In this document: positions 6,110-27,389 of the stretch, in pieces
Layout: the number at the start of each line of letters is the position of its first letter
Position numbering within the stretch: position 1 is the stretch's first letter
NCBI GenBank assembly: GCA_022820805.1
Contig: JAJEEV010000009.1
Span: 124,001-188,000, forward strand
Length of the DNA: 64,000 bases
Reading direction: 5' to 3'
DNA from: Acidimicrobiia bacterium
Lineage (GTDB): Bacteria > Actinomycetota > Acidimicrobiia > Acidimicrobiales > Aldehydirespiratoraceae
The notes under the pieces: model-generated
Told to the model about the DNA's origin: nothing
Databases searched by the model: none
Seen by the model: only the letters and a program-made list of their open reading frames with translations
Program-made: the position numbers and the translations under genes

Positions 6110-7258
6110 TCAAACTTCGGCGTAGATCTGCAGGTGACGTCGGGCCGTGCTCGACCACGAGTAGCGGCCGGCCGTTGCTGAGCCGCTGGCCCGCAGCCGG
6201 CGCACCAGTCCGGGCTCGTCCCTCACCCGGGCCATGCCCGCGGCCAGGGATGCGGGGTTGGCCGTCTCGGTGAGGACCGCGTCGACATCGTGGGTGAGGA
6301 ACTGCCGGAAGACCTCGATGTCGGAGGCCACCACCGGCAGCCCGGCGGCCAGGGCCTCCAGCGCCACCAGTCCCCAGCCCTCGCTGACCGATGGGAACAC
6401 GAAGCTGTCGGCAGCGCCGAACCAGCCGGGCAGCTCGTCGTCCGGCACCGTGCCGACGAGAACCACATCGTCGCCCAGGAGCAGGCCATGGGAGCCCAGC
6501 GACCCGAGGACCTAGTCCCGGTAGGCCCGGTAGTCCTGGAACGAGTGCCCGCCCACGACCGCCAGCATCGGCGGACGGCCCGGCATGGACTTGAGCAGGC
6601 CCAGCGCCTCCATCAAGTAGCGCGAGCCCTTGCGGGGCTCGATGCCCCCGACCGTCAGGAACAGGTGCCGGTCGCCGACGGACACCCGGGACCGGAGCGC
6701 GTCGCGCCCGTCGGATCGCACCGCGCCCGCGAACCGCTCGATCCGCACCCCGTTGGTGACCACCGCCGCCTCCACGCCGTACTCGTCGAGCAGGCGCCGC
6801 CTCCACGGCTCGCTGACGACGAGCACCCGGTCCGGCTCGAGGATGGCCGCGTCCTGGCACTCGATCAGGGCGGGCGTGGTGAAGTCGTCGATGTGATGCA
6901 CGGTCCGGAACAGCCGGAACCCCGCACCGCGGTCCCGCACCCGGGCGGCGGCTCTGGCCGAGATGCAGTCCTGGGTGTGCACGATGTCGAAGCGTTCGCC
7001 CAAGCGGGAGAGCCCCGAGGTGAGGGCGTCGATGTGCGAGAAGACCCGCTCGGTCAGGGTCTCGGCCCGGGGAGGGGCCTCGACGATGTGCACCGGCACC
7101 GTGGTGGGTCTGAAGAACCCCTCCTCCGGGTCGCCCAGGGCGATGAGGGTGACATCGACCCCCTCGGCGCCCAGGGCTTCGGCCAGCTCCACGCTGTGAA
7201 CAGCCCCGCCCCGGGGCCTCACCGAGTAGGTGGCGATCGCGACCCGCCTCTGGCTCAC
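6110..7258 (-). pseudogene. Glycosyltransferase, MSMEG_0565-type, interrupted by an in-frame TAG
   Basis: GT4-like glycosyltransferase of the kind found in nitrilase (Nit1C) clusters. The GTG start at 7258 overlaps the fdrA stop (GTGA). The N-terminal part has VAIATYSVRPRGGAVHS, HTQDCISARAA and FTTPALIECQ; the middle has LTVGGIEPRKGSRYL and VVGGHSFQDYRAYRD. At 6512-6514 the frame meets TAG, then continues without any shift as VLGSLGSHGLLLGDDVVLVG and the donor-binding block FPSVSEGWGLVALEALAAG. A glutamate (GAG) would be expected at the stop, so one G-to-T change explains it. Without the stop the protein would be about 382 residues. Recent inactivation or a sequence error are both possible. 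Confidence 0.85.
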
Positions 7259-8808
7259 GTCGCTAGGGGCACGGACAGGTCGTGATGGACCAGGGCGGGG
7301 TCGCGGTTGACGAGCGCGGCTGCAGCCAGGGCCGCCCGGGCGCCGGTGCCGGCGACGACGCAGCCGGCCTCGCGCATCGCGTCGCGCTGACGCTCGAAGC
7401 CCTGCGGGTCGCGGTCGGTGCCGAGGACGTAGGCCACCACAGCCGCCCCCTCCGCCACCAGCTCCGCCGCAACCGGACCGAGCACCGCGCCGGGGTCGGG
7501 GTGGGCGCCGTCGCCGATGACGACGTCCAGCAGCACCACGGCCACAGTCGGATCGGAGGCCTGCCGGCGCAGCAGCTCGACCCTGGCCTCGGGGTCGATC
7601 ATGGGGTGGGGCCGGCCGCGGGTGTACTCCTCCTCGCCGAGATCCAGGCACACGTGGGCGCCGGCGGGACCGGGCAGCCCCCACGACGGCTCCAGCGGCG
7701 TGTTGGAGTGCACCGGCCCGATGTGACGGCTGGCGATGACCATCGCCTCATACGCCAGGGTGCCCCCGCTGAACAGCCCGACCATGCGTCGGCGGTCGGG
7801 GCTGAGGGCGGTGGTGAGCCTGGCGACCTCCGCGTCGATGGAGCCGACCGGGTCGGGCTGCGGGCGCCCGAGCCTGCCCAGCGCCAAGGCCGCACCCTGC
7901 TCGAGCGTGGTGCAAACCGTCACGCCGTCGGCCACGTCCACGGGCCGGTCCAGCCCGATCAGCGCGGCCACCAGCGGCTTGCTCCGGGGTGCGCCCAGCA
8001 GGCGCTCGGCCACCTCGGCCGCGGGCGGCTTGGACACCAGCAGCGTCACCTCGGTCCCGTCGTGGCGGTCCAGTGCCTCGATGGCGGCCTCGGCCATGGC
8101 CCCGCCGACCGACACGGACAGATCGCGGCCGCCTACTCCGATGACGTGGGACACGCCCGACCCCCACCGGTCGAGCAGGGTCATCACCTCCTGGGCGCCG
8201 GTGCCGGCCGCGGCCACCACCCCCACCGGTCCCGGCGTCACCCGGTTGGAGAAGCCGAGGCCCACGCCGGCCAGCACCGCCGTGCCCGCGCCCGGGCCCA
8301 TGACCAGCCGGCCGAGCGAGCGGGCCCTCCGCTTCAGGTCGATCTCGTCGGGGAGGGGCACGTTGTCGCTGAACAGCAGCACGTCGAGCCCGCGGGTCAG
8401 AGCCTTGTGGGCCTCCAGGGCCGCGTACGGGCCGGGCACCGAGACGATGGCGACGTTGGCGTCCGGCGCGGCCGCCAAGGCTGCGTCGAGGCTGGCAGCC
8501 CGCTCGTCCGCCCGGGCTCGGGCGGTGTCGTCCGCGGCGGCCTGGGCGAACAGCACCGCTCGGGCCCTCTCCAGCGCCGGTTCCAGGTGTTCGCCGGCGC
8601 CCTTCGCCGCGAGGACCAGGTCGTTGGCCCCGGCGCCGTCCAGCCCGTCGGTGACGCCCTCATCGGCCAGTGCCTCGACATTGGCCGGGGTGGCCATCAG
8701 CGCCCAGGCCCATTCCACGCCGGCCGTCTCGCTCATGGCGCGGGTGGCCTCCAGCAGCCGCACGCTGTCGACGTAGCAGTCCGCGACGACGTCCACCCTC
8801 GAAGCCAT
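7255..8808 (-). CDS. fdrA: FdrA family protein (candidate oxamate carbamoyltransferase subunit)
   Basis: A 517-residue FdrA homologue with tandem CoA-ligase-like (succinyl-CoA synthetase alpha-type) domains. Features include PGAGTAVLAGVGLGFSNRVTPG with GVVAAAGTGAQEV near 170-205, the GVGGRDLSVSVGG block near 225, and SGGTLAYEAMV near 355. In E. coli, FdrA with YlbE and YlbF has been linked to oxamate carbamoyltransferase of allantoin catabolism, which yields carbamoyl phosphate. Homologues of YlbE (21300-22715), YlbF (11668-12495) and a carbamate kinase (8850-9827) are all in this window. It follows the carbamate kinase on the same strand with a 41-bp gap. Confidence 0.85.
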   Translation of the reverse strand: MASRVDVVADCYVDSVRLLEATRAMSETAGVEWAWALMATPANVEALADEGVTDGLDGAGANDLVLAAKGAGEHLEPALERARAVLFAQAAADDTARARADERAASLDAALAAAPDANVAIVSVPGPYAALEAHKALTRGLDVLLFSDNVPLPDEIDLKRRARSLGRLVMGPGAGTAVLAGVGLGFSNRVTPGPVGVVAAAGTGAQEVMTLLDRWGSGVSHVIGVGGRDLSVSVGGAMAEAAIEALDRHDGTEVTLLVSKPPAAEVAERLLGAPRSKPLVAALIGLDRPVDVADGVTVCTTLEQGAALALGRLGRPQPDPVGSIDAEVARLTTALSPDRRRMVGLFSGGTLAYEAMVIASRHIGPVHSNTPLEPSWGLPGPAGAHVCLDLGEEEYTRGRPHPMIDPEARVELLRRQASDPTVAVVLLDVVIGDGAHPDPGAVLGPVAAELVAEGAAVVAYVLGTDRDPQGFERQRDAMREAGCVVAGTGARAALAAAALVNRDPALVHHDLSVPLAT

Positions 8809-8849
8809 GGCTTAACGCTAAGTGGTCGGGCGGCCGGCCGGCAGTCGCA

Positions 8850-9827
8850 CTAGAACAGCGAGAGCACGGTGTCGGGCACGATCAGCGTGCCCCGCGGGCC
8901 CGCGATCACGCCGGAGGGCTCGTCGAGGGTTGCGTACACGAGCTCCGGGGTCGTGATGGCGGAGATCCGCTCCGGGGACTCGACGAACTCGATGGCCGCC
9001 TCGACCTTGGGTCCCATGCTTCCCGGAGGGAACTGGCCGTCGGCCAGGTGGCCCCGGGCCTCGGACGCGGTCATCTCGGCCACCGACCGCTGCCGGCGTG
9101 TGCCGAAGTGGAGCTGCACCGCGGCCACGCCGGTCACCATCACGAGAGCCTGGGCCTCGACCGCGTCCGCGATGCGCTCTGCCGCGAAGTCCTTGTCGAT
9201 GACGGCGTCCACGCCCCGGTAGGCGCCGTCGGCCGAGCGGGCCACCGGGATCCCGCCCCCGCCTCCGGCCACCACGATGTAGCCGAGGTTGATCAGCGCC
9301 GATATGGCGTCGGCCTCGATGGGAGCCATCGGCCGCGGTGACGGGACCACCCGCCGGAAGCCGCGCCCGGAGTCCTCGGCCATGGTCCAGCCCCTCTTGG
9401 CGGCCAGCGCCTCGGCCTCCGACGGGTCGAAGAACGGGCCGATCGGCTTGGTGGGCTCCGACAGCCTGGGATCGTCGGTGTCGACCTCGACGTGGGTGAT
9501 GATCGACACCGCGCCGGAGATCTCCTGCTTGCAGACCTCGTTGAGGGCCAGGCAGATCAGGCTGCCCAGCTGCCCCTGGGTCATGGCGCCGAGCGTGAAC
9601 AGCGGCAGGGCCGGCACCAGGTCGATCGAGCCCTCGTGCTGGATGGCGAGGTTCCCGACCTGAGGGCCGTTTCCGTGGACGATGACCACGTTCCAGCCCT
9701 TGCGGATCAGCGAGCGCACCGAGTGGGCCATGGCCAGCGCGTTGGCGTACTGCTCCTCCAGGGTGCCCCGCTGGTCCTCGCGGATCAGCGCGTTGCCGCC
9801 GAGAGCGAGGACTGCGGTCTCGGCCAA
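8850..9827 (-). CDS. arcC: Carbamate kinase
   Basis: A 325-residue amino-acid-kinase-fold enzyme that makes ATP from carbamoyl phosphate and ADP, releasing CO2 and ammonia. Signatures are the N-terminal LALGGNALI, VIVHGNGPQVGNL near 50, the GGGGGIPV nucleotide-binding loop, DAVIDKDFAAERIA, and the C-terminal PPGSMGPKVEAAI. The start is taken as TTG at 9827: a GGGAG ribosome-binding site precedes it and translation then begins with the conserved kinase N terminus, whereas upstream in-frame codons give unlike sequence. With fdrA it forms the terminal steps of a carbamoyl-transferring pathway that would recover ATP and ammonia. Confidence 0.93.
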   Translation of the reverse strand: MAETAVLALGGNALIREDQRGTLEEQYANALAMAHSVRSLIRKGWNVVIVHGNGPQVGNLAIQHEGSIDLVPALPLFTLGAMTQGQLGSLICLALNEVCKQEISGAVSIITHVEVDTDDPRLSEPTKPIGPFFDPSEAEALAAKRGWTMAEDSGRGFRRVVPSPRPMAPIEADAISALINLGYIVVAGGGGGIPVARSADGAYRGVDAVIDKDFAAERIADAVEAQALVMVTGVAAVQLHFGTRRQRSVAEMTASEARGHLADGQFPPGSMGPKVEAAIEFVESPERISAITTPELVYATLDEPSGVIAGPRGTLIVPDTVLSLF

Positions 9828-9885
9828 GGCGCACTCCCTGGGGTTGGGCCCGATCGGGCCGGCGGAGCCGGTCCTGGTTCTCGAA

Positions 9886-9917
9886 TCTGCCGATAGCAGA
9901 ACCGACTTTCTTATAGT
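9886..9917. promoter_or_regulatory. Divergent promoter with inverted repeat
   Basis: The 169-bp gap between carbamate kinase (minus) and the gene at 9997 (plus) holds a perfect inverted repeat TCTGC-CGATA-GCAGA (9886-9900). Just downstream is a TATAGT hexamer (9912-9917) that could be a plus-strand -10 box. The repeat would overlap the -35 zone. No matching regulator was identified. Confidence 0.4.
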
Positions 9918-9996
9918 AGATGAAGCGTTCCGGGTCCTGCCAAGCCACAATGTCGGTGCTGAACGACACCAGCGGCCACGACAAGGAGTCGGCACC

Positions 9997-10656
9997 ATGA
10001 GCTACGGCTCGCCGGAAGAGGATCCCACTGCGGTGCTGGTCGCCCATTGGAACGAGAGCGAGCGCCGCCTCTACCCGGTGGCCACCACCAACCCGGACGC
10101 CTACCAGTCGGTGGTGAGGCTGGTGAGAGCGGTGGCCGATGCCCTAGCCGGCGTCGGGGACCTCGAAACGCTGGCCGAGCGGTGGGAGCGCCGGTCCGAG
10201 TTGGTGGACGAGGCGGTGCGGGTCACCGGCGACATGGCCGGCTACCGGCTCGGTGAGGCGGAGATCGCCGGCGCCGGGTTCGCCATACGCCGCCGCGAGG
10301 TGCTGGCCGAGCAGGCCGAGCGCCGGCGCCGGGAGCGCATCGCCGCGGCCCGCGAGGCCGGGGAGGCCTGGGCGGTGGTCCACACCCAGGGCGACCTGGA
10401 TTCGGGCCTCGTCGATCCCTACCAGTGCATTGAGCTTCATCTGGCGACCGGGCTGGCGGTGGTGAGCACTGTCGAGCCCGACCCCTCCACCATGACCCCC
10501 TCCTATGTGGTGATGGCGGCGGCGCTGGGCGACGAGCATGGCCGGACCGCCGACCTGGACGCAGCCTCCTTCGGCGACACCGAGACTGCCGACCGCTGGC
10601 TCTTCGAGGAGAACCGGCTGGCGATGAGGAGCCGCATCGAGGCAGCCGGTGCCTGA
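9997..10656 (+). CDS. Conserved hypothetical protein of the nitrogen locus
   Basis: A 219-residue soluble protein with a good AAGGAG ribosome-binding site 8 bp before the ATG at 9997. The N-terminal part (LYPVATTNPDAYQSVVRLVR) and a charged coiled-coil-like helix (AEQAERRRRERIAAAREAGE, about 107-126) precede a C-terminal domain with YQCIELHLATGLAVVSTVEP. I recognise no enzymatic motif. It is divergent from the fdrA-carbamate kinase pair and convergent with the AIR-synthase-like gene, so a role in the same nitrogen metabolism is plausible but unproven. Confidence 0.6.
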   Translation: MSYGSPEEDPTAVLVAHWNESERRLYPVATTNPDAYQSVVRLVRAVADALAGVGDLETLAERWERRSELVDEAVRVTGDMAGYRLGEAEIAGAGFAIRRREVLAEQAERRRRERIAAAREAGEAWAVVHTQGDLDSGLVDPYQCIELHLATGLAVVSTVEPDPSTMTPSYVVMAAALGDEHGRTADLDAASFGDTETADRWLFEENRLAMRSRIEAAGA

Positions 10657-10720: not shown

Positions 10721-11689
10721 TCAGTCCCACAGACCGGTGACGGGCTCCTGGTCGAGGTCGATCACTGGCCGGGAGTCGGTGCCCCGGTGCAGGTTGAGGA
10801 CGCCGGTGTCGGTGAGGGAGCCGGCGACCGCCGCGGTCAGGCCGGCGGAACGGAACAGCTCCGCACACTCCTGGGACCGGTCGGTGGCCAGCCAGAAGGC
10901 GTAGGTCGGGAAGCAGACCAGCCAGCGGTCCAGGTCCACGCCCTCCGGGACGGGCAGCGCGTCCAGATCGACATCGGCACCGAGACGGCCCGGCTCCAGC
11001 AGCATCGCCAGCGAGCCGATCACCCCGGCCATGCTCACATCCTTGGCCGCGGCGGCCAGTTCGGTGCGGGCTGCCTCCGCCAGCAGCCGCACGTCGGCGG
11101 CCAGGCGGGGTCCCTGCGGCCCGAGCGTGGCGAAGAACGGGAAGTCGCTGCGCATCCGGCCGTCGAGGCAGCAGACGAACAGCAGTTCCTGGCCCGGCCG
11201 GGCCCGGGTGGCCGACAGGACCCGGTCGGCGTTCCCCACCGCGAAGGCCGACAGGGCGGGCTCGCCGCTGTGCTCGCTGATGTGCCCGCCCACCACCGGG
11301 ACCTCGTAGAGGGCGGCTGCATCGGCCATGCCCCGCAGGCACTCGGCCGCCACCGGGGCCGGCGCCACCACCGTGTTGACGATGGCGGTGGGGACCGCTC
11401 CCATGGCCGCGAGGTCGTTCACGTTGGCCAGCACCGCCGCCACCCCCGCGCCGTGGGGGTCCGACGCCACGAACGGCGGGTGTATGGCCTCGCCGCACAC
11501 GACCAGCGAGCCTCCGTGCGGCATCTCCACGACCGCGCCGTCATCGCCGGGCCCGGTCACCGCATCCGGCGCCCCCACCGCGCCCCGGACGGCTCCGATC
11601 GCCCTCTTGGCCAGCAGGCCCGGGTGGTCGCGCACCACGGCTGCCAGCCGGTCCAGGTCGATCGGCGATGAGGCCTCCGGCGGTGGCAC
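10721..11689 (-). CDS. AIR synthase-related protein, Sll0787 type
   Basis: A PurM/SelD-like ATP-binding protein of the type found in nitrilase-linked Nit1C clusters. Visible motifs are GPGDDGAVV near 47-55, LANVNDLAAMGAVPTAIVNT near 87-106, and the glycine-rich VVGGHISEHSG near 132-142; the C-terminal part carries AKDVSMAGVIGSLAMLLE. Its substrate is not known; the fold suggests activation by phosphorylation. As annotated it begins at GTG 11689, 22 bp past the start of the divergent DUF2877 gene, so at least one of these starts is probably too far upstream (an internal GTG near 11638 is an alternative). It is convergent with the gene at 9997. Confidence 0.85.
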   Translation of the reverse strand: MPPPEASSPIDLDRLAAVVRDHPGLLAKRAIGAVRGAVGAPDAVTGPGDDGAVVEMPHGGSLVVCGEAIHPPFVASDPHGAGVAAVLANVNDLAAMGAVPTAIVNTVVAPAPVAAECLRGMADAAALYEVPVVGGHISEHSGEPALSAFAVGNADRVLSATRARPGQELLFVCCLDGRMRSDFPFFATLGPQGPRLAADVRLLAEAARTELAAAAKDVSMAGVIGSLAMLLEPGRLGADVDLDALPVPEGVDLDRWLVCFPTYAFWLATDRSQECAELFRSAGLTAAVAGSLTDTGVLNLHRGTDSRPVIDLDQEPVTGLWD

Positions 11690-12495
11690 AGCCGCACCGT
11701 ACAGCAGCCGGGGCTGCGGGCGTCGTGGCCGCGGTGTCGGTGGGTGAGGGAGTGCTGGAGGCGGTGTCCGGTGACTTCGTGGGCCGGGTCGAGGGCGTCT
11801 TCGACACAGGGTTCTACGTCTCGGCCCCCTCGCAGGCGGTCTTCGCGGTGCTGGGTCCCCGTGGATGGGCAGGGCCCCTGCACCTGGTGGCCGAGGCCCT
11901 CGGCGCCCTGCCTGCTCCCCACGCCGAGGTCACCGTGGCGGGCGGTGTGCTCGATGCCGGTCCGGTCCGGGTCCGCGTCGACTCCGACCGGCTCTGGGCG
12001 CCCCGCCTGCCGGAGCGGCTGAGTGTCGCCCCGGCGATCTGGCGCGGCATCGCCGGTCCCGCCGAGTCCGAGTTGGTCCCCGTCTGGGAGGACGTGACCG
12101 ACGACGTGCGGCGCGGTGACTTGGCCGCCGTGTTCGGGCGCCTGCAGGGGCGGGGAACCGGCCTGACCCCCAGCGGCGACGACGTGCTCGCGGGGATCCT
12201 GCTGGTGTGCGCCATGACCCCGTCCAGCCGGGAATCTCTGGCCCGACTGGCTCGCTCGGCACGCACCTCCACCCTGAGCCGCGCCTACCTCGGGTGGGCC
12301 GCGGCGGGCCAGAGCATCCAGCCCGCCCACAGCCTGCTCGACGCGGCCGCGGCCGGCGACCAGGACGCGATGCGCGCCGCGGCCAAGTCGCTGTCCGAAG
12401 TGGGGGCCACATCGGGCCGGGCCCTTGTAGCCGGCCTCGCTCTGGCCGCCACCGAACTGGCTCCTACAATGGCGTCCCCGTCCAGCGCGGTGTGA
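11668..12495 (+). CDS. DUF2877 protein, YlbF-like (candidate oxamate carbamoyltransferase subunit)
   Basis: A 275-residue DUF2877 family protein. Its hallmark is GRGTGLTPSGDDVLAGIL near residues 160-177. E. coli YlbF belongs to this family and is associated with FdrA and YlbE in oxamate carbamoyltransferase. ATG 11668 overlaps the divergent AIR-synthase-like gene; a GTG near 11722 (leading to VSVGEGVLEAV) may be the real start. It lies 22 bp before comA, so it heads the operon that continues to 17106 and physically joins the carbamoyl set to the ComA set. Confidence 0.8.
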   Translation: MRPPAVAQPHRTAAGAAGVVAAVSVGEGVLEAVSGDFVGRVEGVFDTGFYVSAPSQAVFAVLGPRGWAGPLHLVAEALGALPAPHAEVTVAGGVLDAGPVRVRVDSDRLWAPRLPERLSVAPAIWRGIAGPAESELVPVWEDVTDDVRRGDLAAVFGRLQGRGTGLTPSGDDVLAGILLVCAMTPSSRESLARLARSARTSTLSRAYLGWAAAGQSIQPAHSLLDAAAAGDQDAMRAAAKSLSEVGATSGRALVAGLALAATELAPTMASPSSAV

Positions 12496-12517: not shown

Positions 12518-13339
12518 ATGCCCATCCCCGAGTCTCCCCGGTTCCTCGAGACCGCGGCCCGAGCCTCGAAGCCGCGCCGCCACGGGATCACCCATGTGAT
12601 CGACAAGGGCACGCCACAAGCGGCGATGGAAGCGCTCCTCGACGCCCACAGTCCGCTCATCGACGTCTGGAAGTTCGGCTTCGGCACGGCCTACGTGGAC
12701 GGCACGGTCGGCGCCAAGGTCGAACTCCTGCGAAGCCGTGACGTGAAGGCCTGCCCCGGCGGGACCCTGCTGGAGGCGGCGTGGTGGCAGGGCCGCAGCG
12801 AAGAGTTCTTCGACTGGGCCGGCCACCTCGGCTTCGGCTGTGTGGAGGTGTCGCGGGGCGCCACCGGGCTTCCGGCCTCCTCCAAGCGCGACCTCATCGC
12901 CGCGGCCTGCAACCGGGGCTTCGAGGTGTTCGCCGAGGTCGGCAGCAAGGATCCCCACGAGGCCGCCCTGGCGTCGGAGTGGCTGGACGAGGCCAAAAGC
13001 GACCTGGACAGCGGTGCCGCCTGGCTGGTGGCCGAGGGCCGCGAGAGCGGGACCGTGGGCCTCTACACCGCCGACGGGTCGGTCCGGGCCGACCTGGTGG
13101 AGTCCCTCCAGTGCCTCGGTGACGATGTGCCGGTGGTGTACGAGGCGCCTCTGCGCCGGCAGCAGGCCTGGCTCGTCAACCATCTGGGCGCGAACGTCAA
13201 CCTCGCCAACATCGCCCCCGAAGGCGTGCTGGCCCTCGAGGCGCTGCGGCTCGGCCTGCGCTCCGACACCCTCAGGACCGGTCTCGAGGCCCGTTCCCCG
13301 GGCTCCACCTCGGACCCGCTGGATCCGTGTTCGAATTAG
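12518..13339 (+). CDS. comA: Phosphosulfolactate synthase (ComA family)
   Basis: A 273-residue homologue of ComA, which adds sulfite to phosphoenolpyruvate to give (R)-phosphosulfolactate, the first step of coenzyme M synthesis. Family features are VWKFGFGTAYVDG near 48-60, CPGGTLLEAAWWQGR near 78-92, GFGCVEVSRGATGLP near 106-120, and FEVFAEVGSKDP near 138-149. The next three genes overlap or nearly overlap it, and two of them are aspartase/fumarase-superfamily lyases, as reported for bacterial coenzyme M synthesis in Xanthobacter. The end product here could be coenzyme M or another sulfonate; no thiol-forming step is identifiable nearby. Confidence 0.85.
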   Translation: MPIPESPRFLETAARASKPRRHGITHVIDKGTPQAAMEALLDAHSPLIDVWKFGFGTAYVDGTVGAKVELLRSRDVKACPGGTLLEAAWWQGRSEEFFDWAGHLGFGCVEVSRGATGLPASSKRDLIAAACNRGFEVFAEVGSKDPHEAALASEWLDEAKSDLDSGAAWLVAEGRESGTVGLYTADGSVRADLVESLQCLGDDVPVVYEAPLRRQQAWLVNHLGANVNLANIAPEGVLALEALRLGLRSDTLRTGLEARSPGSTSDPLDPCSN

Positions 13340-17154: not shown

Positions 17155-17198
17155 ACACCGGGCACCGGCTGAACGACTCACCGACGGGGGAGGCTCTG

Positions 17199-18458: not shown

Positions 18459-18468
18459 GCGGGCGCCG

Positions 18469-19609: not shown

Positions 19610-20728
19610 GTGTCGCTGGCCGAACTCATCATCGACCTCCAGTTCAAGGGTCTGCGCATAAACGCTCCCTTCGAGCGGCGTCCCGGCGGTGCCGGGCCGT
19701 CCGATGCGGGCATGGTCTGGATCGAGGGCACCGCGGTGACCGTGCCGGTGGACGCCGCGTTCGTGTCCGACTCCCCGTACTCGCTCGAGCCCGAGGACCT
19801 CGGCTTCGGGATCTACGCCGGCGGGGTCCGGCTGGCCGGCGCGGCGCCCGCCGACAGGCCCCGCTTCTACGGTCTGACCACCGCCGACGGCGTCCCGTAC
19901 TGGCAGCTGGCCCTCATGCACCTCGACTCGCTGGCCAGCACCGTGCTCCAGACCTGCGCCTACTGGGGCAACGAGGACCAGTGCCGCTTCTGCGGGATCG
20001 GGGTGTCGCTGGACTCCGGCAGCACGGTGCTGGTGAAGCGCCCCGCCCAACTGGCCGAAGTGGCGGTGGCCGCCAAGGAGCTCGACGGCGCGGTCGACAT
20101 CACCCTGACCACCGGCTCCACCTATGGCCGCGACAAGGGCGCCCTGTACGTGGCCAAGTGCGGGGAGGCGATGAAGGAGTCCTCGGGCCTGCCGGTCGAG
20201 GTCCAGTTCGAGCCGCCCGACGACCTCAGCGTGGTCGACCAGGTCGCCGACCGGGGCATCGACTCGGTCGGGATCCATGTGGAGACGTTCGATCCCGAGG
20301 TGCTGCGGTGGGTGGCTCCCCCCAAGTACCGCACCGGCATCGAGCGCTATTTCGAGACCTGGGAGTACGCAGTCGAGCGCTTCGGCGAGGGCCAGGTCTC
20401 CACCTATGTGATCCTGGGCATGGGGGAGGACCCGGACCTGATCGTGGAAGGCTGCCGGCGGGCGGCCGACATCGGCGTGTACCCCTTCGTCGTGCCCCTG
20501 CGACCGGTGCCCGGCTCGCTCATGGGCGATTGGACGCCGCCCACCTCCGACTATGTGGAGCAGGTCGCCCGCAAGGTCGCGCCGTACCTGGTGGAGCGGG
20601 GGCTGACCGCCGACAAGGTCGCGGCCGGGTGCGCCCGCTGCCAGGCCTGCTCGCCGGTGGGGGCGATGGAGCGGGAGCTCCAGGGGTCGAACGGCCGCAA
20701 GCTGATCCCCGTTCAGGCCTTGGGCTGA
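19610..20728 (+). CDS. Radical SAM protein, MSMEG_0568 type
   Basis: A 372-residue radical SAM enzyme of the family found in nitrilase Nit1C clusters. The N-terminal third is not canonical. The cluster cysteines appear as C116, C125 and C128 (CAYWGNEDQCRFCGIG), a CX8CX2C spacing rather than the usual CX3CX2C. A C-terminal CARCQAC group near 340 could hold an auxiliary cluster. ITLTTGSTYGRDKG and VSTYVILGMGEDPDL fit the barrel core. The GTG start at 19610 gives SLAELIIDLQFKGLRI, typical of the family. The reaction is unknown. Confidence 0.88.
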   Translation: MSLAELIIDLQFKGLRINAPFERRPGGAGPSDAGMVWIEGTAVTVPVDAAFVSDSPYSLEPEDLGFGIYAGGVRLAGAAPADRPRFYGLTTADGVPYWQLALMHLDSLASTVLQTCAYWGNEDQCRFCGIGVSLDSGSTVLVKRPAQLAEVAVAAKELDGAVDITLTTGSTYGRDKGALYVAKCGEAMKESSGLPVEVQFEPPDDLSVVDQVADRGIDSVGIHVETFDPEVLRWVAPPKYRTGIERYFETWEYAVERFGEGQVSTYVILGMGEDPDLIVEGCRRAADIGVYPFVVPLRPVPGSLMGDWTPPTSDYVEQVARKVAPYLVERGLTADKVAAGCARCQACSPVGAMERELQGSNGRKLIPVQALG

Positions 20729-20742
20729 CTGCGGAGGCAGCG

Positions 20743-21288
20743 GTGGAGCGCATCAGATGCTGGCGGGCCGTCTCCCCCGAGGCCAGGAGCTGGCACATGC
20801 GCATCCGTCACCGGGTGTTCGTGGAGGAGCAGCGGGTCATACCCCTCACCGATGTCGACGACTGGGACGCGGACCCCGACACCATCCATGTGGTGGCGGG
20901 CCGTGGGTCCGAGGTGATCGGCACGGTGCGCCTCTACCGCACGGACGACGCTGGCCGCTGGAAGGGCGACCGCTTGGCCGTGCTGCCCGGCTACCGGGCC
21001 GGAATCGTGGGGATCCGGCTCGTGCGCTTCGCCGTCTCGACCGCCGCCGAGGCCGGAGGCAACGTGATGGACGCCTTCGTGCAACTCCAGAACGTCGTCT
21101 TCTTCGAACGCATCGGATGGGAGCACAGCGGGCCGCCGGTGCCCTACTACGGCCTGCCGCACCAGCCGATGATCTTCCGGTTGGCCGAAGCCCGAAGGCT
21201 GGTCGAGGCTGACGTGCCGGAAGATGCCCACTTGCGACTTCCCGCCGCCCGAGACGCGCCCAGCGCGCTGCTCGTCACCATGGGCTAG
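20743..21288 (+). CDS. GNAT acetyltransferase, MSMEG_0567 type
   Basis: A 181-residue GNAT-fold protein. It contains RIRHRVFVEEQRVIPLTDVD and VIGTVRLYRTDDAGRWKGDRLAVLPGYRA, the second being the acetyl-CoA-binding region, then FVQLQNVVFFERIGWEHSG, which matches the N-terminal domain defined for MSMEG_0567. In other bacteria it is adjacent to the radical SAM protein and a nitrilase. Here it is 14 bp after the radical SAM gene and 11 bp before the DUF1116 gene. The acceptor substrate is unknown. Confidence 0.88.
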   Translation: MERIRCWRAVSPEARSWHMRIRHRVFVEEQRVIPLTDVDDWDADPDTIHVVAGRGSEVIGTVRLYRTDDAGRWKGDRLAVLPGYRAGIVGIRLVRFAVSTAAEAGGNVMDAFVQLQNVVFFERIGWEHSGPPVPYYGLPHQPMIFRLAEARRLVEADVPEDAHLRLPAARDAPSALLVTMG

Positions 21289-21299
21289 CACGCCGCGGC

Positions 21300-22715
21300 A
21301 TGAGTGTTACCGGCCTGCCCTCGAGGGTGGAGGTTGTCAACGTCGGGCTGGAGCGGTTCGAGACCGCGGTGCGCGACCAGGGCGCGCCCGCGGTCGGCGT
21401 GGACTGGCGGATCCCCGCCGGCGGAGACCTCGACGCGGTAGCTGCGCTGGCCCGGCTGCTCGGTCCGGCCTCGGGCCGGGTGGACGCGGCCAATGCCGAG
21501 GTGATCAGCCGTCTCGACCGGGGCGTGCCGATGCTGCAGGGAGTGGAGACCGCGGGCGACGTTGTCGGTGGCCTGGGGGACGGCATGATCCTGCACTGCG
21601 GGCCGGGCATCGCATGGGCCGAAATGTGCGACCCGCTCAGGCGCTCGGTCCGGGCCGCGGTCGTGGCCGAGGGCTGGGCCGCCCACACCGAAGCGGCCGG
21701 CCAGATGGTGCAGGCCGGCGAGATCCGGCTCGAGCCGGCCAATGAGCACTGCACGGTCGTGCCCATGGCCACCGCGATCGGCCCCTCCGCGCCGGTCTAT
21801 GTGGTGTCCGTCGATGCCGGCGGCACCACGGCGTACTCCAGCCTGAACCAGGGGTCCGGGGCCGTCGCCTGGTTCGGAGTCGACTCCGACGCGGCCATCG
21901 AGCGCCTCCGGTTCCTGCGCGACGCGCTCGGCCCGGCCCTGGCCCAGGCTCTCGAGCGGGCCGGCCCGGTCGACGTGTTCTCTCTGGCCGCGCAGGGCAT
22001 CGCCATGGGCGACGACGTCCACATGCGGGTCCAGGCCACCACCAACCTGTTGCTGCGCGACCTGCTACCGCATCTGGTCCGCTCCAGCAGCGCCAGGATC
22101 GCCGAGGTGGCGGACTTCCTGAGCACCAACCACCTGATGTTCCTCAACATCGTCATGGCCGGCGCCCGCGCCGTGGCCGAATGGGCCTCCGAGGTGCCCG
22201 ACTCGAGCATCGTCACCACCATGGCCCGGAACGGCACGACGTACGGGATCCGCCTCGCCGGCCGGCCCGAGCGCTGGTTCATCGCCGATGCGCCCCCCGT
22301 GCAGGACGCCCTCTACTACCCGGGCCAGGGCCCCGACACCAGCGCCGGTGACATCGGCGACAGCGCCGTGCTGGAGCTGGTGGGGCTGGGCGGGCCGGCC
22401 GCGGCCAACTCTCCCGCGGTGGCCGGCTTCCTCGGTGGCCGCATGGCCGACGCCATGGCCGTCACCGCGGCCATGGGGCGCATCTGCGCGGGAACCAGCA
22501 GCCGTTTCCGCCTGCCGGTGCTCGACAACGCCGGCACCCCTCTGGGGGTCGATGTCCGTCGAGTGGTCGAGGCCTCCATCACACCCGCGGTCAACACGGG
22601 GATCCTCCACGCCTCCGACGGGTCCGGCCAGGTGGGCGCCGGGGTTGCCCACGCCCCTGCCGAGTGCTTCCTGGAGGCCCTGCTCGACCTCGACCAGCGC
22701 CTAGCGGAGGATTGA
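21300..22715 (+). CDS. DUF1116 protein, YlbE-like (candidate oxamate carbamoyltransferase subunit)
   Basis: A 471-residue DUF1116 family member. Distinct blocks are PAVGVDWRIPAGGD near 30-43, LHCGPGIAWAEMCDPLR near 98-114, MGDDVHMRVQATTNLL near 238-253, and LSTNHLMFLNIVMAGARA near 273-290. E. coli YlbE, of this family, works with FdrA and YlbF in carbamoyl transfer from oxalurate. Here the three homologues are in three separate transcription units, and this one sits in the amiS-radical SAM-GNAT operon. That scattering ties the carbamoyl set to the nitrile set. Confidence 0.85.
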   Translation: MSVTGLPSRVEVVNVGLERFETAVRDQGAPAVGVDWRIPAGGDLDAVAALARLLGPASGRVDAANAEVISRLDRGVPMLQGVETAGDVVGGLGDGMILHCGPGIAWAEMCDPLRRSVRAAVVAEGWAAHTEAAGQMVQAGEIRLEPANEHCTVVPMATAIGPSAPVYVVSVDAGGTTAYSSLNQGSGAVAWFGVDSDAAIERLRFLRDALGPALAQALERAGPVDVFSLAAQGIAMGDDVHMRVQATTNLLLRDLLPHLVRSSSARIAEVADFLSTNHLMFLNIVMAGARAVAEWASEVPDSSIVTTMARNGTTYGIRLAGRPERWFIADAPPVQDALYYPGQGPDTSAGDIGDSAVLELVGLGGPAAANSPAVAGFLGGRMADAMAVTAAMGRICAGTSSRFRLPVLDNAGTPLGVDVRRVVEASITPAVNTGILHASDGSGQVGAGVAHAPAECFLEALLDLDQRLAED

Positions 22716-22733: not shown

Positions 22734-23372
22734 TCAGGTGGGCCTCAGGGCGGTCCAGACGGCGCGCGCCGTGTGCCGGTAGGGGTTGCGCCAGCGGTGC
22801 TCCTGATCGGTCCGGAAGTGGATCGAATCGCCCCGGCGCAGCTGGAACGACTGGCCGGCGACATCCACGTCGAGCCTTCCCGACAGCATGTGGATCAACT
22901 CCTCGCCGGCGTGGCGCAAAGGGGTCTCGCCGCTGCCGGCGCCCGGGTCCACCTCGGCGATGGCGGTGGCCACGAAGTACTGCCCGTAGGGGCCCGAGAT
23001 GCCGCCCAGCGTCAGGCCCTCGTGGGGCGTGTAGATCGAGCGGCGCTCGCCGGCGGGGGTGAAGACCACATAGGACGGCGGCTCCTGGTCCTCCTCCACG
23101 AAGTACGAGACCGGCTGCTCGAGGGCCGCGGCCAGCTTCAGCAGCGTTGTGATGGTCGGCACCATCGTGCCCTGCTCCACCTTGTGGATGGCCGCGGTCG
23201 AGACGTTGGAGCGGTCGGCGAGCTGCTGCAACGACAGGTTCCACTGCTTGCGGAGATACCGGACCTTGGGACCGATCGAGTTCACTACCGCGCTGAGGTC
23301 CTCGCCGTGGGTCTGGTTGGGGCGCCGGTCCGTGCTCCCGGCGCCACTCCGGGTCGCGACACTGCTCGGCAT
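22734..23372 (-). CDS. XRE-family transcriptional regulator with cupin domain
   Basis: A 212-residue regulator. The helix-turn-helix occupies about residues 34-90 (LRKQWNLSLQQLADRSNVST, then IHKVEQGTMVPTITTLLKLA), and a cupin ligand-binding domain occupies about 130-205 (MLSGRLDVDVAGQSFQLRRG, then FRTDQEHRWRNP). Start ATG 23372 has a GGAGGTGG ribosome-binding site; the frame is open upstream into the osmC promoter but that extension is not family-like. It is divergent from osmC, and the shared gap contains the conserved motif at 23409. It is the best candidate controller of the four motif sites. Confidence 0.9.
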   Translation of the reverse strand: MPSSVATRSGAGSTDRRPNQTHGEDLSAVVNSIGPKVRYLRKQWNLSLQQLADRSNVSTAAIHKVEQGTMVPTITTLLKLAAALEQPVSYFVEEDQEPPSYVVFTPAGERRSIYTPHEGLTLGGISGPYGQYFVATAIAEVDPGAGSGETPLRHAGEELIHMLSGRLDVDVAGQSFQLRRGDSIHFRTDQEHRWRNPYRHTARAVWTALRPT

Positions 23373-23408
23373 GGCTCCACCTCCGGGCGTAGATGATAGA
23401 CGGCGGCC

Positions 23409-23443
23409 TTTCGCTTGCGATCGGCGGGTGTCATATAGTTGAC
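23409..23443 (+). promoter_or_regulatory. Promoter/operator between XRE-cupin regulator and osmC (motif site 3)
   Basis: TTTCGCTTGCGA, 8 bases, TGTCATATAGTTGAC. All positions except one base in the first block, the spacer and one near the end match the nitrile hydratase site at 17120-17154. TATAGT at 23434-23439 may be the -10 box for osmC. The position, 37 bp from the regulator start, suits autoregulation. Confidence 0.65.
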
Positions 23444-23475
23444 GGGCTGCGCCACCCCTGAAGGACGATCCCTTC

Positions 23476-23871
23476 GTGAGTTCCCCTACCCGCACAGTCT
23501 CGGCCAGGTGGCTGGGCGCCTACCGCTGCGATGTGACCGCCGGCGACTTCACCATCCCGGTGGACGAGCCCGTCAGCGTGGGCGGCACCAACGAGGGCCC
23601 GCAACCCACCGAGCTGTTGCTGGCCGCGCTCTCGTCCTGTTTCACCCTCGCGGTGGCCCATGCGGCCCGCAAGCGCGGCATCGAGTTGTCCCATGTGGGA
23701 GTCGAGGTGACCGGCACCTACGACGGGCCCCGGTTCTCGGCGCTGGAGATCCGCGTCGACGCCGGCTGCGAGGAGTCGGTCAAGGCGACGCTCGTGGAGG
23801 CCGCGGCCCGGGTGTGCTACGTGAGCAACACGATCCGCCACACCCCCGAGCTGTCGGTTGTGGCCGTCTGA
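23476..23871 (+). CDS. OsmC family protein
   Basis: A 131-residue OsmC-like protein. The family uses two conserved cysteines to reduce organic hydroperoxides, and one is clear in LLAALSSCFTLAVAHAARKRG (around residue 55). The second is expected near VCYVSNTIRHTPEL (C about 115). Length fits the smaller YhfA-like branch. The GTG start at 23476 follows the shared promoter. Its control by the same motif as nitrile hydratase suggests stress protection or thiol chemistry linked to nitrile use; this is inference. Confidence 0.88.
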   Translation: MSSPTRTVSARWLGAYRCDVTAGDFTIPVDEPVSVGGTNEGPQPTELLLAALSSCFTLAVAHAARKRGIELSHVGVEVTGTYDGPRFSALEIRVDAGCEESVKATLVEAAARVCYVSNTIRHTPELSVVAV

Positions 23872-25345: not shown

Positions 25346-25606
25346 ATGGGGTTCGCTCACTGGCTCCGCTCCAACTCGGAGCACTACCTGGCCATCGACG
25401 CGCAGCGGCGCGTCGGGGCCCGCTACGGCGCTCGCGCCCCGGAGAAGGCCCGCGGCGCCCGGGAGATCTTCTGGAGGCACGTGTTCACTCCGGTGTATCG
25501 CCTGCTTCCGTGGGGCATCCGGCGCCGTGTCATCGCTATCCTGCCGGGCTCGCACCGCCGGGACTGGCCCGTCCGATCGCGCCGGCCCCAGGGTCCGGCC
25601 GTCTGA
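25346..25606 (+). CDS. Small basic conserved hypothetical protein
   Basis: An 86-residue arginine-rich protein beginning MGFAHWLRSNSEHYLAIDAQ, 20 bp after the flavoprotein. The segment ARGAREIFWRHVFTPVYRLL is followed by basic WGIRRRVIAILPGSHRRDW. The central hydrophobic stretch (about 49-67) is weak for a membrane helix and may be amphipathic. I do not know a function. The clean spacing and codon-position GC suggest a real gene. Confidence 0.5.
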   Translation: MGFAHWLRSNSEHYLAIDAQRRVGARYGARAPEKARGAREIFWRHVFTPVYRLLPWGIRRRVIAILPGSHRRDWPVRSRRPQGPAV

Positions 25607-25652: not shown

Positions 25653-26141
25653 ATGCCGAAGACAGTGACCATCCCGCCGCCCCAAGAGGGCGACGTCATG
25701 CACAACATCGAGGAGAAGATCTTCCCCGATTACAAGGCCGAGGAGGGCGACCAGGCGTACGTGTTCATGCACACCGTGCCCTTCGAGGGCTCGGTCGGCC
25801 TGGTGAACATGCTCACCGCCACCCGCCTGCAGCGCAAGGGCTTCAAGCTGACCTTCGTGCTGTACGGCCCGGCTGTGCTCATGGCCAACGCCGCCCGCGG
25901 CTATCCGGCCGTCGGCCAGGAGGGATTCCCCGGCAACCTCGGGTACAACCGCCAGCTCCAGACCCTCATCAACGAGGGCGCGACGGTCTACTGCTGCCGC
26001 TTCGCCATGGGCGCGCTCTACGGCATGCGCGAGGACGACGTGATGGAGGGCGTGACCCCCTTCAACCCGCTCGACGTCCTCGACGCCAACATCCAGGCCT
26101 GGCGCGACCGGGCCCTGGTCCTCTCCACCTGGACCCTTTAG
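25653..26141 (+). CDS. MSMEG_0572/Sll0783 family nitrogen starvation response protein
   Basis: A 162-residue protein of the family named for MSMEG_0572 and Sll0783, found beside nitrilases in Nit1C clusters and induced by nitrogen shortage in cyanobacteria. Family features include MHNIEEKIFPDYKAEEGDQA, FMHTVPFEGSVGLVNMLTAT, GFPGNLGYNRQLQ and YCCRFAMGALYGM. An AAGGAGG ribosome-binding site lies 6 bp before the ATG. It stands alone between the flavoprotein unit and repeat R3. The molecular role is unknown. Confidence 0.9.
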   Translation: MPKTVTIPPPQEGDVMHNIEEKIFPDYKAEEGDQAYVFMHTVPFEGSVGLVNMLTATRLQRKGFKLTFVLYGPAVLMANAARGYPAVGQEGFPGNLGYNRQLQTLINEGATVYCCRFAMGALYGMREDDVMEGVTPFNPLDVLDANIQAWRDRALVLSTWTL

Positions 26142-26243: not shown

Positions 26244-27044
26244 ATGGTCAACGCCGCCTCCACCGCCGCCCCGCTGCGGCGCGCCCTGCGGGGTCGCGCC
26301 CCGGGGCTGCGGGTGGAGCGAAGCCTGTGGTCCGGCGGCGCCGATGTCGTGGCCGGTGTGGACGAGGTGGGCCGGGGCTCGTGGGCCGGGCCGCTGACGG
26401 TGGTGGCCGTGGTCGCGGACCCCGACACCCGCATCTACAAGGTGCGCGACTCCAAGATGCTCAACGCCTCCGAGCGCGAGGTGCTGCACGACCGCATAAG
26501 GCTCTGGGCCCGAGCCGTGTCGGTGGGTCATGCCACGGTGGCCGAGTGCGCGGAGTTGGGCATGGCCGACGCCCAGCGCCTGGCAGCCCGGCGGGCCGTC
26601 GACGGGCTGGGCCTGGACGTCGACCATGTGCTGGTGGACGGATCCTGGAACTTCTTGAAGCCGCGCCCGGATGACGCGGCCGGCGCCGGAGCGGACCCCG
26701 ACGACGGCCCGGCGGTGACCACGATCGTTCGGGGCGACGCGTCGAGCCTCTCGATCGCGGCTGCGTCGGTGGTGGCCAAGGTCACCCGGGACCGGCTGAT
26801 GATCGAGGCCGCGGAGCGCTATCCCGCCTACTGGTTCGCGTCGAACAAGGGCTACCCGTGCCCCCGCCACATCGCGGCGCTGGCGGCGTGGGGTCCGTGC
26901 GCCATCCACCGCCGGCGCTGGGTGTTCATGGACGACCTGCGCTGGAGCGGTGTGCCCCGCCTCCTACCTCCGCCGGACGACACCCAACCCCGGCTCTTCG
27001 ATCCTTCCGCCGGGAGCGCAGCCGCGGTGGGCGGCCGGCTGTAG
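26244..27044 (+). CDS. rnhB: Ribonuclease HII
   Basis: A 266-residue RNase HII, which cuts RNA in RNA-DNA hybrids and at single ribonucleotides. Catalytic residues lie in VAGVDEVGRGSWAGPL (Asp and Glu) and in VLVDGSWNF and ASVVAKVTRDRLM (further acids). ATG 26244 is preferred over 26193 because the longer version starts inside repeat R3. The C-terminal extension of about 40 residues (PPPDDTQPRLFDPSAG) is low-complexity. Confidence 0.92.
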   Translation: MVNAASTAAPLRRALRGRAPGLRVERSLWSGGADVVAGVDEVGRGSWAGPLTVVAVVADPDTRIYKVRDSKMLNASEREVLHDRIRLWARAVSVGHATVAECAELGMADAQRLAARRAVDGLGLDVDHVLVDGSWNFLKPRPDDAAGAGADPDDGPAVTTIVRGDASSLSIAAASVVAKVTRDRLMIEAAERYPAYWFASNKGYPCPRHIAALAAWGPCAIHRRRWVFMDDLRWSGVPRLLPPPDDTQPRLFDPSAGSAAAVGGRL

Positions 27045-27056
27045 CCTGCAGTCGCC

Positions 27057-27389
27057 ATGGGCCAGCCCGTCACCTTTCTGCGCACGTCGTCGCCCCGGCC
27101 GGGGCTGGTGCGGTTCGAGCTGAACCGGACCCTCACCGGGATGGGCCACGAGCGTTACCGGGCGGGCGATGAGATCCTCGGTGTCCGCCCCTGCGATGAG
27201 CTGGCCCGCCGGATGCTGGCCACCGGCCGGCTGTCGTCGCTGCACATCCACGGCTCGGTGATCACCGCCGAGCTGGCCGGCGGCGACGACTCCGGGCTGG
27301 GCGACGTGATCGCCAGCCTCTACACCTACTACGTCCCCGGTGTGGAGATCCCCAGCGACGAAGAGCTGATCGCCATGGTGGAGGCCTGA
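27057..27389 (+). CDS. Nfu/NifU N-terminal domain-like protein
   Basis: A 110-residue protein starting 12 bp after rnhB. Sequence elements such as PGLVRFELNRTLTGMGHERY, the middle block LARRMLATGRLSSLHIHGSV and the end LYTYYVPGVEIPSDEELI resemble the Nfu N-terminal fold, which helps in iron-sulfur protein maturation. It has no CxxC pair, so it would not carry a cluster like a full Nfu. The assignment rests on pattern similarity only. Confidence 0.55.
   Translation: MGQPVTFLRTSSPRPGLVRFELNRTLTGMGHERYRAGDEILGVRPCDELARRMLATGRLSSLHIHGSVITAELAGGDDSGLGDVIASLYTYYVPGVEIPSDEELIAMVEA

Follow-up and report, generated by a model that had tools for sequence, protein, structure and literature searches.

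Coenzyme M genes clustered with nitrile or cyanide nitrogen genes suggest an undescribed use of coenzyme M in bacteria

This analysis concerns a 64,000-nucleotide stretch of DNA (the window) from an Acidimicrobiia bacterium of the Aldehydirespiratoraceae (GCA_022820805.1, contig JAJEEV010000009.1, positions 124,001 to 188,000), whose draft assembly, here called G000, comprises 53 contigs and is 94.8% complete. The ~20 genes between about 5.2 and 26.1 kb form a block that is found again in bacteria of soils and sponges and in methane eaters. The block has four modules: Nit1C-type genes; an oxamic-transcarbamylase set (AllF, AllG, and AllH) plus carbamate kinase; a nitrile hydratase of the cobalt type, its accessory protein, and an amide channel; and a coenzyme M (CoM) pathway with a disulfide reductase and an OsmC protein. 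Its features are given below with the family matches on which they rest (the 80 loci are described further on).

6110..7246, minus strand: MSMEG_0565-family glycosyltransferase; TIGR04047 matches in two pieces in one frame, with an in-frame stop (TAG) at 6512-6514
7255..8808, minus strand: AllF/FdrA subunit of an oxamic-transcarbamylase-like complex; 401 bits to acyl-CoA synthetase FdrA (cut-off 433); solved homologue 3dmy
8850..9998, minus strand: carbamate kinase; PRK12352 307 bits (above cut-off 266), arcC 320 bits (cut-off 358); true start probably near 9818, given a family match that begins at residue 60-61
9997..10656, plus strand: hyp10k, a conserved protein without known family; match in 57 of the 80 loci, without Pfam match
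10721..11689, minus strand: AIR-synthase-like ATP-binding protein (Sll0787 or methanogenesis marker 2 type); TIGR04049 250 bits (cut-off 321) and TIGR03267 189 bits, both below cut-off
11668..12495, plus strand: AllH (DUF2877); Pfam AllH 73.8 bits
12518..13339, plus strand: ComA/XcbB phosphosulfolactate synthase; TIGR03849 240 bits (cut-off 280)
13327..14256, plus strand: XcbA-family (DUF7714) protein; NF052538 278 bits (above cut-off 150), Pfam DUF7714 259 bits
14256..15590, plus strand (open reading frame from 14055, match from residue 65): XcbD-like protein, sulfopropionylcysteine synthase type; NF052536 498 bits (cut-off 600)
15577..17106, plus strand: XcbC-like CoM-pathway protein; NF052535 431 bits (cut-off 575)
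17196..17858, plus strand (open reading frame from 17136): nitrile hydratase beta subunit; TIGR03888 213 bits, above cut-off
17859..18458, plus strand: nitrile hydratase alpha subunit, cobalt type (VCTLCSC); TIGR01323 294 bits, above cut-off
18457..18840, plus strand: nitrile hydratase accessory protein with a His/Asp-rich tail; TIGR03889 71 bits (above cut-off 46)
18980..19507, plus strand: AmiS/UreI-type amide or urea channel; Pfam 27.7 bits (above cut-off 25); match in 9 of the 80 loci
19610..20728, plus strand: MSMEG_0568-family radical SAM protein (C116/C125/C128, C341/C344/C347); TIGR04043 365 bits (above cut-off 303.7)
20731..21288, plus strand: MSMEG_0567-family GNAT acetyltransferase; TIGR04045 90.7 bits (above cut-off 68.45)
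21300..22715, plus strand: AllG (DUF1116); Pfam AllG 236 bits; solved homologue 3clq
22734..23495, minus strand: helix-turn-helix (HTH)-cupin regulator, PuuR-like; PuuR 66.7 bits (below cut-off 211), HTH_3 and Cupin_2; true start probably near 23285
23476..23871, plus strand: OsmC-type thiol peroxidase-like protein with C55 and C114; Pfam OsmC 69.8 bits
24003..25325, plus strand: coenzyme A (CoA)-disulfide-reductase-like flavoprotein with C42; TIGR03385 264 bits (below cut-off 579)
25346..25606, plus strand: conserved 86-amino-acid protein; homologues sit between the flavoprotein and MSMEG_0572
25656..26141, plus strand (open reading frame from 25527): MSMEG_0572/Sll0783 family protein; TIGR04044 200 bits (above cut-off 109.85)
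9908..9921, plus strand: operator-like site with 2 mismatches to GTCNTATAGTWGAC; pattern search
17141..17154, plus strand: operator-like site GTCATATAGTTCAC, upstream of nitrile hydratase; motif comparison
23430..23443, plus strand: operator-like site GTCATATAGTTGAC, between the regulator and OsmC; motif comparison
5276..5989, plus strand (open reading frame 5168-5989): CbtA-type cobalt transporter, an associated neighbour; Pfam CbtA 181 bits

An initial annotation, made from the sequence alone, had listed five families named from nitrilase-linked clusters, and all five are present: MSMEG_0568, MSMEG_0572, and MSMEG_0567 exceed their cut-offs, Sll0787 falls below its own, and MSMEG_0565 is in two pieces. 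Family matches likewise place FdrA, DUF1116 (AllG), DUF2877 (AllH), and carbamate kinase within the same region, as had been described. The nitrile hydratase was correctly called a cobalt enzyme, as evidenced by alpha, beta, and accessory proteins over their cut-offs, the VCTLCSC sequence, and a cobalt nitrile hydratase as the best solved match of the alpha subunit; we take the CTLCSC motif to be the mark of this type. The reported lack of a nitrilase holds for the Nit6803 family across the G000 assembly, which gave no match at E<=1e-30. To that list of members we add the AmiS/UreI channel, OsmC, the CoA-disulfide-reductase-like flavoprotein, and the 86-amino-acid open reading frame. The extent proposed, 6110-27389, was right for the gene set and wrong for 26193-27389, where ribonuclease HII and its neighbour lie outside the set.

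The "ComA operon" of the initial annotation is there too, but its most unexpected aspect had gone unrecognised: judged by its best families, it is the bacterial CoM pathway (ComA, XcbA, XcbD, and XcbC). In NCBIfam, the best family for each of these genes is ComA, XcbA, XcbC, or XcbD, with XcbA alone exceeding its curated cut-off. XcbE, the pyridoxal phosphate (PLP)-dependent last step, was not found in G000. To our knowledge, CoM synthesis genes in bacteria are known only from growth on alkenes. Our statements on the CoM steps draw on excerpts of PMC8727900 and PMC11507031 and on NCBIfam names.

Relatives of the locus were collected with an alignment of four radical SAM proteins as the query, and the best 80 of 273 encoding stretches were analysed for gene content by tblastn with the window proteins. 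These stretches are at most ~21 kb long and many finish at contig ends, so that the shorter loci reveal only part of the set. They come from sponge-type Acidimicrobiia, Nocardioides, Kribbella, Nonomuraea, Pseudonocardia, Geodermatophilus, Paraburkholderia, and others. Across Actinomycetota and Proteobacteria, the modules recur with their gene order reshuffled, and eleven genes (ComA, XcbA, XcbD, XcbC, AllF, AllG, carbamate kinase, radical SAM, GNAT, AIR-synthase-like, and glycosyltransferase) stand together in 24 of the 80 loci; relatives thus do not keep these gene sets at unrelated places. Where at least 8 kb was available on each side (44 loci), XcbA was found in 33, AllG in 38, and carbamate kinase in 39. 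Extra stretches from 12 of the 80-locus genomes were added, and in the extended stretches from Kribbella (L117 and L121), MSMEG_0572, the flavoprotein, OsmC, nitrile hydratase, the regulator, and the CoM genes continue on from the rest. The modules form one conserved gene set.

The association is also seen genome-wide. Among the 48 genomes behind 50 of the 80 loci, all bearing this radical SAM type, 47 carry XcbA; the exception, behind L111 (Nocardia aurea), may reflect contamination, since its radical SAM gene nearly matches a gene of Nonomuraea lactucae. Of 396 evenly sampled Actinomycetota genomes (G000 included; radical SAM threshold E<=1e-50), 28 have the radical SAM protein, 10 have XcbA, and 9 have both (Fisher 1.1e-10), in a sample that overlaps the 80 loci and so is not independent of them (the XcbA coordinates of G496 and G516 are those in G336 and G342). 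Ranked by score, XcbA is absent with the 6 radical SAM matches at ~448 bits or more and with the 10 at 327 or less; the nine XcbA carriers score 365-416, and three genomes without XcbA (G416, G475, and G643) score 418-426. A further 296 genomes, a sample of the window's own class, were searched for both proteins. XcbA occurs in 13; the radical SAM protein is above cut-off in 6, with weaker matches (E<=0.001) in 19 more; and both occur in 3 (G000, G195, and G212; Fisher 0.0012, on the over-cut-off count). G195, from another family, has the set in a different order, without nitrile hydratase and with an Amidohydro_2 protein (AmHyd) and a PLP enzyme that we take as XcbE; in G212, XcbA and the radical SAM gene are on separate contigs.

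One slot in the set is filled by nitrile hydratase, AmHyd, or a Nit6803 nitrilase. Counting either subunit, nitrile hydratase occurs in 26 of the 80 loci and AmHyd in 17, with both in 0 and neither in 37, many of them short; the 26 include Paraburkholderia elongata (L056), which has a beta fragment only, so that the alpha subunit is in 25. The 40 loci bearing MSMEG_0572 divide into 23 with nitrile hydratase, 13 with AmHyd, 1 with a fragment, and 3 with none. Over 49 whole genomes, nitrile hydratase alpha is found (anywhere) in 33 and AmHyd in 19, with both in 3, neither in 0, and thus one only in 46. Of the three with both, in two Kribbella some 7 kb separate nitrile hydratase from XcbA, with AmHyd on a different contig, and in G328 AmHyd adjoins XcbA and nitrile hydratase lies elsewhere. 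On the radical SAM tree, the slot state requires a minimum of 8 changes, 7 of them forced by starred branches, against a shuffled mean of 16.2; this tree was built by a quick method, has three long branches, and has 58 of its 81 rows labelled, with L056 as nitrile hydratase.

The third alternative, a Nit6803 nitrilase, lies in the composite clusters of Methylocystis iwaonis and P. elongata. In M. iwaonis it scores 573 bits (cut-off 502.6) and is directly upstream of the radical SAM gene. In P. elongata it adjoins MSMEG_0572; a 67-residue nitrile hydratase beta remnant sits next to OsmC (L056:8345-8545), and three nitrile hydratase alpha genes are on other contigs. P. elongata is also alone among the 49 genomes in exceeding the Nit6803 cut-off (three matches), with weaker matches at E<=1e-30 in 17 others; against the loci themselves, a Nit6803 query matched L056 and, weakly (35%), L072.

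AmHyd is an Amidohydro_2 barrel with conserved histidines and aspartate. A TGA flagged inside several matches raised the idea of selenocysteine, which was dropped after tblastn of the 17 AmHyd loci gave no internal stop. Elsewhere in the set, the catalytic cysteines are conserved in at least 97% of sequences: C42 of the flavoprotein (36 sequences), C55 and C114 of OsmC (38), C104/C107/C109 of nitrile hydratase alpha (26), and C116/C125/C128 and C341/C344/C347 of the radical SAM protein (81). This conservation argues for working enzymes. For AllF, no histidine is conserved in 97% of 56 sequences. Succinyl-CoA synthetase works via phosphohistidine; from the AllF alignment no phosphohistidine is expected, and phosphorolysis would fit.

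Nit-type and XcbA regions were further compared in 12 stretches from other genomes plus two earlier ones. Five (L031, L032, L131, L132, and L138) hold two nitrilase-superfamily genes each and a sixth (L139) holds one, and none of the six stretches gave an AllF, AllG, AllH, carbamate kinase, or CoM match. The two proteins of L131 (7838-8707 and 12438-13286) are nearest to N-carbamoylputrescine amidase (107 bits) and to an archaeal nitrilase model (90 bits; 71 on amidase), with all scores far below cut-offs and the Nit6803 model at only 35 and 31 bits. As queries they found no match in the 80 composite loci or the window, and a short match in the longer stretch L124. From these few loci, hydrolytic nitrilase-superfamily enzymes and the phosphorolytic AllFGH with its kinase look like alternatives for a late step. 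L128-L130, from the three high-scoring genomes without XcbA, have AllG, carbamate kinase, AmHyd, and hyp10k, with AllF in two and AllH in one; there was no nitrile hydratase in the 20 kb read and no nitrilase, CoM, flavoprotein, or OsmC match in the stretches read. The remaining regions are small: the radical SAM gene alone (L133-L135), a 3.4-kb contig with XcbA and XcbD (L136), and radical SAM with MSMEG_0572 at a contig end (L137).

The initial annotation had proposed operators shared by four units, and part of this proposal stands. One motif is common to the nitrile hydratase and OsmC/HTH promoters and, with 2 mismatches, to that of carbamate kinase. In sponge-type loci, with at most 2 mismatches to the OsmC-side site, a site lies upstream of nitrile hydratase in 8 of the 10 loci with this enzyme and between the regulator and OsmC in 11 of 11. 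In 68 other loci (1.1 Mb; L089 excluded), the GTCNTATAGTWGAC pattern, derived partly from the same loci searched, gave 17 sites in 14 loci at no more than 1 mismatch, and 54 loci had none; of twenty permuted patterns, one gave 1 site and the others 0. Most of the sites (14 of 17) lie no more than 260 bp from where a gene of the cluster begins, chiefly carbamate kinase/hyp10k and radical SAM. The TATAGT within the pattern could be a -10 box, and the HTH-cupin protein probably controls the cluster's units. A second promoter pair (18915 and 23918) is exact in both places and is carried by several sponge relatives before the same genes, but it did not rise above chance in the single test made: at up to 3 mismatches there were 2 matches versus 1.2 expected, and 34 of 100 shuffles reach 2.

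For comparison with known systems, we take NitC to be of the Nit6803 family, MSMEG_0572 to be NitB, and the NitH flavoprotein to be of the MSMEG_0569 type. The Nit1C cluster (nitBCDEFGH) of Pseudomonas oleovorans CECT 5344, as given in excerpts of PMC11049912, has in common with the window the radical SAM (NitD), GNAT (NitE), and AIR-synthase-like (NitF) genes. Among the features of Nit1C, the window has radical SAM, GNAT, and MSMEG_0572 over cut-offs and a candidate NitF counterpart whose best family, Sll0787, stays below its cut-off (250 bits versus 321). Two Proteobacterial composite members also have a Nit6803-family nitrilase, like Nit1C, whereas the window lacks one and adds the CoM genes, AllFGH, carbamate kinase, OsmC, the CoA-disulfide-reductase-like protein, hyp10k, and the HTH-cupin regulator. 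A single MSMEG_0569-type query (from L131) gave no tblastn match in the window or the 80 loci. NitC of cyanotrophic Pseudomonas hydrolyses a 2-hydroxynitrile and serves cyanide assimilation, according to the same excerpts (PMC11049912). The gpr cluster of Mycobacterium smegmatis (MSMEG_0565-0572) shares the glycosyltransferase, radical SAM, GNAT, and MSMEG_0572 families and a nitrogen-starvation context. It is induced by nitrogen starvation and confers peroxide resistance, and nitrilase-like and flavin oxidoreductase parts belong to it; the excerpts of PMC6039565 that describe it name no CoM or AllFGH genes.

The xcb/etn CoM pathway of Xanthobacter autotrophicus Py2 and Nocardioides JS614 has homologues of ComA, XcbA, XcbC, and XcbD, 35-47% identical to those of the window, in the same order in JS614 apart from XcbE, which the window's genome lacks by our searches. 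Alkene/epoxide genes accompany them there, and Nit, AllFGH, and nitrile hydratase genes here. A tblastn search with the XcbA of G195 returned 6 plasmid records, of which four regions from three organisms were read; on the Xanthobacter Py2 and Nocardioides JS614 plasmids, XcbA stands in an alkene/epoxide context from which the other modules are absent. The third organism's plasmid locus, that of M. iwaonis (NZ_CP143315.1 and NZ_AP027143.1), shares most of the set and all five CoM genes, with identities to the window of 64% for XcbC, 64% for AllG, 66% for the flavoprotein, 78% for MSMEG_0572, 60% for AllF, 52% for the regulator, and 52% for OsmC. It differs in its Nit6803 nitrilase in place of nitrile hydratase and in a radical SAM protein only 43% identical. 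Cytochrome bd-type oxidase genes adjoin this locus (L143:13263-15841) and were not matched beside other composite loci; cytochrome bd oxidases can be cyanide-tolerant. A search for XcbA in phages found none. The four families of Escherichia coli AllFGHK are all in the window (and AllF, AllG, and AllH thus in its genome), on two sides of the locus, and there are no allantoin genes among the window proteins scanned. Oxalurate is the substrate from which E. coli AllFGH forms carbamoyl phosphate (PMC11326118, in the excerpts available). The literature searched, in the form of the openings of abstracts, did not contain this combination of gene sets.

We favour the reading that the set scavenges nitrogen from nitriles or cyanide, is of Nit1C descent, and was rebuilt around CoM, with ATP recovered through carbamoyl phosphate, and we put its probability at roughly 0.4; we infer the substrate, the order of reactions, and the role of CoM. 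ComA, XcbA, XcbD, and XcbC, with XcbE in most genomes tested, would make CoM, and the CoA-disulfide-reductase-like flavoprotein and OsmC would set its thiol/disulfide state. Disulfides undergo cyanolysis. The substrate would be a cyano group; it may derive from cyanide that the CoM disulfide captures to form an organic thiocyanate, the CoM-thiocyanate step being our own proposal. The slot enzyme would hydrate the cyano group to a carbamoyl or amide group, AllF-AllG-AllH would phosphorolyse the carbamoyl compound to carbamoyl phosphate, and carbamate kinase would generate ATP along with ammonia and CO2. The radical SAM, GNAT, AIR-synthase-like, glycosyltransferase, and MSMEG_0572 proteins would keep their Nit1C roles. 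Speaking for this reading are the pairing of XcbA with the radical SAM type, the gene content of the 80 loci, the exchange of slot enzymes, the nitrilase in the two Proteobacterial clusters, the separation of AllFGH from nitrilase-superfamily genes in the other Nit-type stretches, the cytochrome bd genes of M. iwaonis, the conserved catalytic cysteines, the rarity of epoxyalkane:CoM transferase homologues, the published activities of NitC and E. coli AllFGH, and the induction of the M. smegmatis operon. A narrower version, which we regard as improbable in this exact form, makes CoM a carrier in nitrogen assimilation from cyanide or thiocyanate: CoM thiocyanate would be converted to S-carbamoyl-CoM by nitrile hydratase or by AmHyd as a new nitrile-hydrating Amidohydro_2 family, and succinyl-CoA-synthetase-like AllFGH would release CoM and carbamoyl phosphate for ATP.

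Several observations weigh against the favoured reading. Three genomes of one family (G416, G643, and G475) have Nit-type genes, AllG, carbamate kinase, and AmHyd and no XcbA anywhere in the genome; CoM is therefore not needed everywhere for the Nit-AllG-kinase chemistry, and these CoM-free relatives show that a Nit-AllFGH system either acquired CoM or lost it. XcbE is present in 35 of 49 genomes at E<=1e-10 and has no match in 14, G000 included; without it, another C-S lyase may serve, or the product may be other than CoM. The window's nitrile hydratase is nearer to ordinary nitrile hydratases than to thiocyanate hydrolase, whose gamma model reached 190 bits in the window against a cut-off of 291. 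The fold of AmHyd is that of decarboxylases, hydrolases, and hydratases alike, and L031, L032, and L132, which are Nit-type loci without AllFGH, hold AmHyd plus nitrilase-superfamily genes, so AmHyd need not substitute for a nitrilase; the idea of it as a general nitrilase replacement is weakened accordingly. Because a nitrilase itself releases ammonia, AllFGH may act elsewhere, and the M. iwaonis stretches read gave no match to AllH or carbamate kinase. Finally, G328 has a 41% epoxyalkane:CoM transferase-like match, and 11 more genomes have weaker or partial ones. The single four-part system of the initial annotation gains from the recurrence of the set but is qualified by the three CoM-free genomes and by nitrile hydratase being one of three alternatives; its suggestion of nitrile or cyanide assimilation with ATP recovery through carbamoyl phosphate is strengthened by the Nit6803 nitrilase in two Proteobacterial clusters and is still something that we infer.

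The dispensability of CoM in that family also speaks for a somewhat unlikely competitor, in which the nitrogen comes from ureides or amides: the slot enzyme, AllFGH, and carbamate kinase would degrade an N-carbamoyl or amide compound, and CoM would be just a protective thiol that helps OsmC and the flavoprotein to buffer redox stress under nitrogen starvation. This account can draw on the action of AllFGH on oxalurate (PMC11326118) and on the peroxide resistance given by the MSMEG_0565-0572 cluster (PMC6039565), each as excerpted above, and on an ABC transporter ATPase of one family in 7 of the 80 loci; it leaves unexplained both the nitrile hydratase and Nit6803 nitrilase in the slot and the tight pairing of CoM genes with this radical SAM type. 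The absence of XcbE matches from 14 of the 49 genomes, which would allow cysteine-sulfonate rather than CoM as the product, and a glycosyltransferase weakly resembling MshA of mycothiol synthesis fit a biosynthetic cluster instead. There, the radical SAM, GNAT, AIR-synthase-like, and glycosyltransferase proteins would turn an intermediate of the CoM pathway into a small molecule or cofactor, and nitrile hydratase would convert a nitrile to an amide. We consider this unlikely, given that carbamate kinase and AllFGH indicate catabolism, that the slot enzyme switches repeatedly on the tree, and that Nit1C is linked to growth on cyanide (excerpts of PMC11049912).

A chance neighbourhood of independent pathways, with CoM used for alkene/epoxide metabolism as known, is already disfavoured and is very improbable. 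In its favour, alkene-plasmid XcbA genes stand without the other modules, 10 of the 13 genomes with XcbA in the class sample lack an over-cut-off radical SAM protein of the family, and G322 has epoxyalkane:CoM transferase homologues. However, the set is retained in varying order in Actinomycetota and Proteobacteria, XcbA and the radical SAM protein go together in the Actinomycetota sample (Fisher 1e-10), an operator-like site is common to its units, and a transferase homologue of at least 50% identity occurs in only 1 of 49 genomes, G322. Apart from G322 and the 41% match in G328, that enzyme as the CoM user was left without support.

A few further observations concern single genes and other loci. 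The window's glycosyltransferase is a weak point: the gene is uninterrupted in 10 of 11 compared loci (the 10 giving a match), and the stop at 6512-6514 may reflect either a faulty assembly or a loss of recent date. Of six stretches fetched, five have CbtA next to the glycosyltransferase and one is without a glycosyltransferase match, and CbtA occurs in 7 of 38 loci labelled nitrile hydratase versus 0 of 19 labelled AmHyd. The predicted structure of hyp10k has a mean predicted local distance difference test score (pLDDT) of 92.5 and found no match against the PDB by Foldseek at E<=0.001. A large BTAD/AAA/TPR regulator lies near the cluster in 14 loci (e.g., L073:11633-15058). Other Acidimicrobiia (L015-L024) have XcbA, XcbD, and XcbC without Nit or AllFGH matches in the stretches read, and in Pseudonocardia sp. 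OFTM178 (L119), CoM genes share a contig with clear epoxyalkane:CoM transferase homologues, separate from the same genome's composite cluster. An Rfam scan of the window gave nothing at gathering scores, and a tRNA search of it gave none.

The joint occurrence of CoM genes and genes that take nitrogen out of nitriles or cyanide points to a use of CoM not described before. If CoM serves nitrile or cyanide nitrogen here, the cofactor gains a new role, and if it is a carrier, that would be a new biological role of CoM across actinobacteria, sponge-associated bacteria, and methanotrophs. Also, if the favoured reading is true, the uncharacterised Amidohydro_2 family that alternates with nitrile hydratase would be a candidate for new nitrile chemistry, and the unexplained partner genes of Nit1C would become testable in isolates of Kribbella, Nocardioides, and Nonomuraea.

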